Origin: Phragmitibacter flavus
GTDB taxonomy: Bacteria; Verrucomicrobiota; Verrucomicrobiia; Verrucomicrobiales; Verrucomicrobiaceae
Assembly: GCF_005780165.1 (NCBI RefSeq)
Contig: NZ_VAUV01000015.1
Coordinates: forward strand, 1-64,000
Length of the DNA: 64,000 nucleotides
Reading direction: 5' to 3'
Shown piece by piece: positions 16,334 through 17,440 of this stretch (the stretch's first letter is position 1; each line of letters starts with the position of its first letter). The notes beneath the pieces are model-generated. The model ran no database searches, was not told where the DNA came from, and saw only the letters and a list, made by a program, of their open reading frames with translations. The translations under genes and the position numbers were made by a program.

Positions 16334-16612
16334 ATGTCCCGCTCACTTAAAAAAGGCCCCTTTGTTAATCAGAAGCTGCTCTACAAAATTGACCAGCTCA
16401 ATGAAACCAAGGCGAAGCGCCCGATCAAAACCTGGGCTCGTGCCTCCATGATCACCCCTGATTTTGTCGGTCACACCTTCCTCGTTCACAACGGGAAAGA
16501 CTTCCTCAGTGTTTACGTGACGGAAAACATGGTTGGCCACCGCCTCGGTGAATTTTCACCGACCCGCGTTTTCAAAACTCACGGCAACCACACCGCCAAA
16601 GTCTCCAAGTAA
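16334..16612 (+). CDS. rpsS: Small ribosomal subunit protein uS19
   Basis: This 92-residue protein is S19, part of the 30S head that forms a complex with S13. The sequence [10 protein letters not shown], the [20 protein letters not shown] region and [19 protein letters not shown] are diagnostic. Normally rplV follows directly; here a 262-codon gene for an exported protein stands between them, 42 bases downstream. Confidence 0.97.
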
Positions 16613-16654: not shown

Positions 16655-17440
16655 ATGATCCGTTCCATCCATCGTCTTACCCAGCTTGCCGCGCCTCTCG
16701 CGCTGGTCTGCCTGGTGCATGCGACGGTGCTTGGACAGAGCAATCCGGCGATCGAGTTGATGGAAGCGAAGACCGCCTTGGAATACTCCAATGCCCGCAT
16801 CGCGGAATTGGAAGAGTCCGTGGCGAAATACAAATCCCAAGCCACCGCTTACAGCGACAGCCTGGCTGCCGCCAACAATGAGTTGGAGCAGACCCGCGAA
16901 GCGCATGACAAACTTCGCGTGCAGATGGAAGGATTGGGCGTCGCCGCCATCGATCCCTCCGGAGTGGAATTGCAGCAGACCTTGCTCACCGCATTGAGCG
17001 ACCTGCGCATCCTCGAACAACAGAAGCGCAATCTCGCCGATGCCCTTCTTGGTTTGTCCGAATCCGCCCTCACTCATGCCAATGCGCAAGGTGATCCAGC
17101 GGCCCGCCAGTCACTCGAACAACGTCTCGCCGATGCAGAGAAAGCTCTCGTCAGTCTGCGCGGCAGCGCCGAGGAAAACTCCTCGGGCAATCTTCAAAAC
17201 GCCAGCATCGTCAGCTTGAAAGACGAGCTCGGCATCGCCGTCCTCAACGTCGGCAGCAAACATGGGGTTCATCCAGGGATGCCCTTCGCCATTTATCGTC
17301 AGGACAAGCCTGTCGCACGTGCTCTTGTTGTGGATGTCCGCAGCGGGGTGAGTGGAGCCATTGTCCAGGAACTCGTCAACCCTAACGACCGCGTCAAAGT
17401 TGGCGATGTCGGCAAGGTGGAGGCGGAATTTAAAGGTTAA
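16655..17440 (+). CDS. Exported coiled-coil protein inserted in the S10 operon
   Basis: This 261-residue protein is not a ribosomal protein. It starts with a signal peptide (about residues 1-27, hydrophobic LAAPLALVCLVHATVLG). A long helical region, probably coiled coil (about 33-100), has heptad-like Leu/Ala and many Glu/Lys, and a second helical stretch runs to about 165. The last 80 residues look like a compact beta domain: DELGIAVLNVGSKHGVHPGM, FAIYRQDKPVARALVVDV, then VKVGDVGKVE. That pattern resembles C-terminal modules of envelope and flagellar-accessory proteins. It lies 42 bases after rpsS and 14 before rplV, shares their C-ending codon use, and is probably cotranscribed. The function is unknown. 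Confidence 0.85.
   Translation: MIRSIHRLTQLAAPLALVCLVHATVLGQSNPAIELMEAKTALEYSNARIAELEESVAKYKSQATAYSDSLAAANNELEQTREAHDKLRVQMEGLGVAAIDPSGVELQQTLLTALSDLRILEQQKRNLADALLGLSESALTHANAQGDPAARQSLEQRLADAEKALVSLRGSAEENSSGNLQNASIVSLKDELGIAVLNVGSKHGVHPGMPFAIYRQDKPVARALVVDVRSGVSGAIVQELVNPNDRVKVGDVGKVEAEFKG

Follow-up and report, generated by a model that had tools for sequence, protein, structure and literature searches.

Few bacterial gene orders are as stable as that of the S10 cluster, and ribosomal protein operons also house non-ribosomal genes such as adk, map and infA. Among exported proteins with a C-terminal barrel, FlgT is organized as N and M domains followed by the barrel. The window, i.e., the whole 64,000-nucleotide stretch of Phragmitibacter flavus DNA that was analyzed, contains a gene between rpsS and rplV whose product is predicted to be exported and to carry long helices ahead of a six-strand barrel.

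The open reading frame (ORF) spans positions 16655..17440 of the plus strand, begins with an ATG and encodes 261 amino acids. It starts 42 nt past the stop of rpsS (S19; 16334..16612, plus strand) and ends 14 nt ahead of rplV (L22; 17455..17895, plus strand), as the original prediction had placed it. The ORF is a real coding gene, because dN/dS values of 0.046–0.158 in 22 of 22 close pairs reveal purifying selection; the ribosomal neighbours are mostly under stronger constraint in such pairs. Inspection by eye upstream of seven genes showed no clear Shine-Dalgarno site for the ORF, and none for rpsS either. Codon use had been said to match that of the ribosomal genes and, on this argument, the protein had been expected to be abundant. 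When 22 ribosomal and EF-G genes (0.66–0.807) served as the training set, the ORF obtained 0.656; all 22 exceed this value, and it is reached by 15 of 27 background ORFs, some of them possibly shadow frames. Codon use is thus uninformative in the window, and was rejected as a sign of high expression.

The gene is found at the expected place in 55 of 57 sampled genomes of the order. Some match was obtained in 56 of the 57 genomes searched, and S10 loci with the ORF in 55; the ORF lies between rpsS and rplV in 54 of these loci, and in the remaining one (L038) the contig begins just before the ORF, with rplV next. The two exceptions are G006 (75% complete), in which no ribosomal gene was found next to the best match (L061), and G016 (87% complete), which gave no match. 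Identity of the best matches ranges from 57% down to 28%, G006 excepted. The rplV match begins a median of 839 nt past the rpsS stop (range 758–980; 54 loci); four neighbouring S10 junctions have medians of 33–48.5 nt, with a largest single value of 365 nt at rplW–rplB. The spacing between the ORF and rplV is 3–43 nt in 52 of 55 loci. Absence from close relatives together with foreign composition had been named as grounds for discarding the original prediction, and neither was found: the gene is in place in 55 of the 57 relatives, and its GC content is 58.4% versus 58.1% for the window.

Nine further loci (L056–L064), representing weaker matches in eight genomes of the order, lie away from the rpsS–rplV junction. 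Searched with the family profile, the window genome itself yielded the junction gene (E 3.8e-85), weak relatives at three other places (E 1.7e-6 to 3.6e-4) and another three matches above E 0.01. That genome also encodes two adjacent, apparently membrane-anchored helix-plus-barrel proteins with the look of distant paralogues (G000:C6:114269-114832 and 115499-116116; L184). Similar adjacent pairs occur in two g12 genomes (L183, 1378-2154 and 2202-3017; L185, 1619-2401 and 2437-3210).

In the class, a profile of 35 order members found a match somewhere in 179 of 236 genomes, S19 being found in 227. Sixty rpsS–rplV junctions outside the order were read, drawn from 46 of the family codes f7–f60 and chosen mostly where the place of S19 was listed. 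An exported ORF is present at 29 of the 60: 22 encode 215–292 amino acids, one 180 (L116), and six are short forms of 112–125 amino acids (L074, L075, L076, L082, L110 and L118), recognized by eye, that comprise little beyond the signal peptide and the barrel. With the short forms left out, the order-only profile gave a junction match in G192, G125 and G214 and matched G238 and G063 with the place unlisted; the assignment of L110 rests on inspection by eye and on a profile that includes L110. The exported ORF is absent from the other 31 junctions, where the gap between rpsS and the rplV match measures 1–43 nt in 25 cases and 85–552 nt in six (L080, L081, L083, L085, L086 and L099, the last with an unrelated-looking frame of 127 codons). 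In the 0.9-Mb genomes G072 and G080 (L085, L086) the ORF is gone and gaps of 148 and 313 nt remain; the 2.5-Mb genome G144 (L087), of the same genus code, keeps the ORF. Three f12 genomes, G062, G069 and G107 (L072, L071 and L073), combine an ORF-less junction with weak family matches elsewhere in the genome, which may correspond to a relocated orthologue or to a paralogue.

The wider survey covered the phylum Verrucomicrobiota. A class-wide profile matched 213 of 288 genomes; of these 288, 194 belong to other classes of the phylum, judged by genome numbering and the match list, and among the 194 about 131 have a match and 63 have none. Three samples from outside the class, all hand-picked, were read. 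In a sample led by S19 (30 genomes, 27 preselected by family match), the ORF is located between rpsS and rplV in 12, the two genes are joined without it in six, and the stretch past rpsS has no rplV in 12. In a sample led by L22 (30 genomes, 28 preselected by family match), a family ORF lies 12–101 nt ahead of the rplV match in 19, and rpsS is absent within the approximately 1.5 kb examined in all 19; six genomes have neither the ORF nor rpsS, and five have rpsS and rplV joined with no ORF. In a control led by L22, consisting of 30 genomes that lack a family match, L22 was found in 29: the ORF precedes rplV in one (L227, missed by the class-wide profile), rpsS and rplV are joined without it in 22, and both the ORF and rpsS are absent in six. 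Weighted roughly by the sizes of the two groups, the L22-led sample and the control suggest that the gene precedes rplV in about half of the genomes sampled outside the class.

Of 13 best profile matches retrieved from genomes outside the class, 11 are located directly ahead of rplV without rpsS, and two (G395 and G379) are not next to rplV. The S10 operon is broken upstream of the ORF in many genomes outside the class, and the ORF stays with rplV. Loci at which rpsS was not found upstream of rplV are L168–L174, L176, L178, L179, L181, L189–L193, L195, L197–L202, L204–L206, L209, L210, L212, L217 and L227. Longer upstream stretches at L168 and L171–L174 contain other, non-S10 frames. The gene is widespread but patchy in Verrucomicrobiota, occurring in many members and not in all. 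The rpsS–rplV junction, held by the original prediction to be almost invariant in bacteria, is therefore not invariant within Verrucomicrobiota, the phylum examined; the description of the gene as lineage-specific is too narrow for a gene that occurs, if patchily, within the class as well as beyond it.

A first tree of 140 genomes (92 with and 48 without the gene), based on up to five ribosomal proteins, requires 13 presence changes. After addition of the control genomes (166; 93 with and 73 without), 15 changes are required versus a mean of 54.2 in 100 shuffles, of which the lowest value is 45; these trees are quick, unrooted searches with no bootstrap or outgroup, and such counts cannot separate gain from loss. 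The midpoint root separates groups of 81 and 85 genomes, of which 50 and 43, respectively, have the gene, and the joined or split state of rpsS and rplV changes three times on the 166-genome tree. Three clades uniformly lack the gene: one of 21 genomes within the class, and two of 12 and 11 genomes elsewhere in the phylum. Barrel distances correlate with ribosomal distances (Mantel r 0.58; 69 genomes, 2343 pairs), the maximum of 999 permutations being 0.20. The simplest reading is an old gene repeatedly lost from one fixed place, loss being favoured over several gains. Recent acquisition is unsupported given the distribution, the selection, the GC content and the distance correlation.

The N-terminus of the protein is a predicted signal peptide (residues 1–27; 16655..16735, plus strand), with a helix at residues 5–25 in the model, a hydrophobic peak and a putative cleavage site, assigned by eye, near VLG|Q. 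The hydropathy scan found the N-terminal signal sequence expected of Sec-exported proteins, with a peak of at least 1.6, in 92 of 103 family proteins, the 11 members below this value including rows with uncertain starts; 19 cytoplasmic controls (18 ribosomal proteins and EF-G) reach at most 1.37. These results are in agreement with the signal peptide seen originally. Loose patterns sorted the 103 members into eight with lipobox-like signals, 94 with signals of the signal peptidase I type and one with neither. Lipobox-like signals in L162 and L164 suggest that the protein may be lipid-anchored in some lineages; the lipobox of L164 is visible by eye and was overlooked by the pattern.

The AlphaFold2 model of the window protein (mean pLDDT 88.9, pTM 0.46; 58-row alignment) displays helices at residues 5–25, 31–93, 101–143 and 148–176. 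The last three form a long helical region (residues 31–176; 16745..17182, plus strand) with a turn at the conserved LG of residues 94–95, and across the family this part ranges from almost nothing in the forms of 112–125 amino acids to about 150 residues. The model supports the long coiled coil proposed earlier in so far as it predicts long helices. The C-terminal beta domain foreseen from the sequence, for which structure prediction of residues 180–261 had been proposed, is modeled as a six-strand beta-barrel of FlgT-C/MreC-like type (residues 180–258; 17192..17428, plus strand), with the beta domain of the model at residues 183–255. Near-invariant residues of the barrel are G200, G204, G208, R215, R229, G250 and D251. 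A model of the short form L118 (pLDDT 82.2) contains the same six strands and is missing the helical region.

Foldseek ranked two FlgT-type entries at the top for both the long and the short model, and the best hits of the long model also include MreC. The barrel superimposes in VIA-align to 8z5n, an 'LPHT ring' chain that we take to be FlgT, with Z 11.6 and a root mean square deviation of 1.8 over 75 residues, and to 3w1e with Z 10.9 and a deviation of 2.3 over 77 residues; F1/V1-ATPase barrels are nearly tied at Z 10.1–10.5. Among the matches listed, the best 50 consist of the two FlgT-type entries and F1/V1-ATPase barrels. The predicted fold is accordingly a common six-strand barrel, and the match is no proof of kinship because the ATPase barrels score so closely. 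The export signal, together with a barrel whose first fold match is the periplasmic FlgT, agrees with the earlier prediction of an envelope protein.

By sequence, the window protein alone had no hit at E 0.001 against Pfam, NCBIfam and PDB sequences, and reached no Pfam or NCBIfam cut-off. The family profile matched TsaP (E 8.4e-4) and MreC (E 0.0093) among 43 PDB hits up to E 1, which are largely chance matches to coiled-coil proteins. FlgT_C (PF16538) scores 15.2 bits (E 0.03) with the window protein, short of the gathering cut-off of 27 bits, and is matched at E 0.01 or better by seven of 58 family members, the best at 5.9e-4. The MreC profile (PF04085) is absent from the Pfam matches of the window protein listed to E 10, and matches one of the 58 members (E 0.0018). 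The window genome (E 1.9e-32) is among the 207 class genomes, out of 236, that encode a separate MreC, and identity with MreC is thereby rejected. For 20 g12 genomes no MreC is listed; every one of these gave a strong family match, and for six the junction itself was read. Of 36 genomes compared for secretins, 18 lack the ORF and 18 have it; secretins occur in 16 of the former and 17 of the latter, which lends no support to a dependence on them.

The reading that we consider best, at a probability of roughly 0.4, is that of a periplasmic adaptor supplied along with ribosome synthesis. It would be an old Verrucomicrobiota protein, inherited mainly vertically, that exits the cytoplasm, most likely via Sec, and acts in the periplasm. 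Because the barrel is constant and the helical part variable, the six-strand FlgT-C/MreC-type barrel may be the working module that docks on an envelope partner, and the helices may form a spacer of about 0–150 residues that sets reach or oligomerizes. The gene, lying ahead of rplV, would most likely be co-transcribed with the ribosomal operon; supply would then follow ribosome synthesis up and down, dosing the adaptor in proportion to growth, a coupling to which the operon position points and which the original prediction had proposed as a tie to growth rate. The adaptor reading is favoured by the conserved place, the purifying selection, the few presence changes and the distance correlation, as well as by the hydrophobic N-terminal segment and the same barrel in long and short forms, with FlgT as the first match. 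It is weakened by the codon use, which gives no sign of high expression, and by the fold hits and the near-tie of FlgT with the F1-ATPase barrels, which fail to fix a function. The gene is also dispensable over evolution, given the undisturbed ORF-less junctions (31 of 60 in the class) and the clades of 21, 12 and 11 genomes, and those junctions, together with the 22 of 29 joined without the gene in the set chosen for lacking a family match, fit a frozen accident, in which an ordinary periplasmic protein landed before rplV and enjoys steady transcription with no functional link to ribosome synthesis. The matches away from rplV in G395 and G379 (two of the 13 fetched) count against the adaptor and, if true orthologues, for the accident. 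Among genomes in which rpsS was not found upstream of rplV, the gene nevertheless stands before rplV in 19 of the 25 from the preselected set and in one of the seven from the set without family matches; with this, the accident is a tenable but doubtful account. That the gene is an envelope component hard-wired to ribosome production, a phylum-old device in which co-transcription with rplV doses the adaptor and the linkage outlasts the rpsS–rplV split, appears to us rather unlikely.

Other explanations assign the protein a different job or place. Membership of the MreC, FlgT or TsaP family, with the corresponding role in rod elongation or in a flagellar or secretin ring, could account for the fold matches and for the profile hits to TsaP, MreC and, in seven of 58 members, FlgT_C, but is improbable given the score below the FlgT_C cut-off, the separate MreC genes, the strong family matches in the g12 genomes without MreC, and secretins that are found in most ORF-less genomes and missing from one ORF-bearing genome. 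SecM controls secA, and a similar secretion monitor, in which translation and export of the nascent chain control rplV translation, would suit an exported product encoded a short distance ahead of rplV in the order and placed first before rplV where rpsS has left. Conservation nevertheless spans a folded domain of more than 70 residues under protein-level selection, and the last residues vary in sequence and length, unlike an arrest motif, which makes such a monitor very improbable. The ribosomal neighbours might also suit a protein that, despite its hydrophobic N-terminus, is retained in the cytoplasm or associates with the ribosome, an idea hardly credible in view of the signal-like N-terminus of 92 of 103 members, some of them lipobox-like, and of the periplasmic FlgT as first fold match.

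The place of the gene before rplV suggests that provision of an envelope component may be coupled to the making of ribosomes. That an exported protein is kept in the S10 cluster across distant branches of the phylum, and beside rplV in genomes that no longer have rpsS there, hints at possible selection for a link between making ribosomes and building the envelope. The gene offers a concrete handle on how envelope synthesis is matched to growth, and Verrucomicrobium spinosum, which can be cultured and whose essential genes were surveyed by transposon mutagenesis (PMC12283558), is a suitable species. The gene also represents a family for which no Pfam or NCBIfam cut-off was reached in these searches. 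No description of it was found in titles and abstract starts of the literature on the gene, the phylum and FlgT, and the available parts of PMC12283558, PMC3444138 and PMC2474590 make no mention of it. The one PVC-wide protein described in PMC3444138 has about 53 to over 80 residues and differs from the junction protein by this size.

Compared with described systems, the protein shares with the C-terminal domain of FlgT (PF16538; Vibrio flagellar H ring, PDB code 3w1e; also the presumed FlgT chain of 8z5n) a six-strand barrel in an exported periplasmic protein. Unlike FlgT, it has a helical region ahead of the barrel, residues 31–176 preceding it in place of the FlgT domain order, and a ribosomal operon context. 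With MreC (PF04085, COG1792) it shares the order of parts, i.e., a hydrophobic N-terminus, long helices and a barrel, besides Foldseek and weak profile matches. TsaP, the secretin-associated protein of type IV pili (PDB code 3jc8), combines LysM with a FlgT-like domain; the family profile matches it over 41 barrel positions, and LysM does not appear among the Pfam matches of the window protein listed to E 10. The genomic setting is analogous to that of secY, likewise a non-ribosomal housekeeping gene in the S10-spc cluster and located downstream in the window. Unlike passengers of the secY type, the gene encodes a predicted exported protein and lies in the S10 part, a comparison that applies within Verrucomicrobiota.
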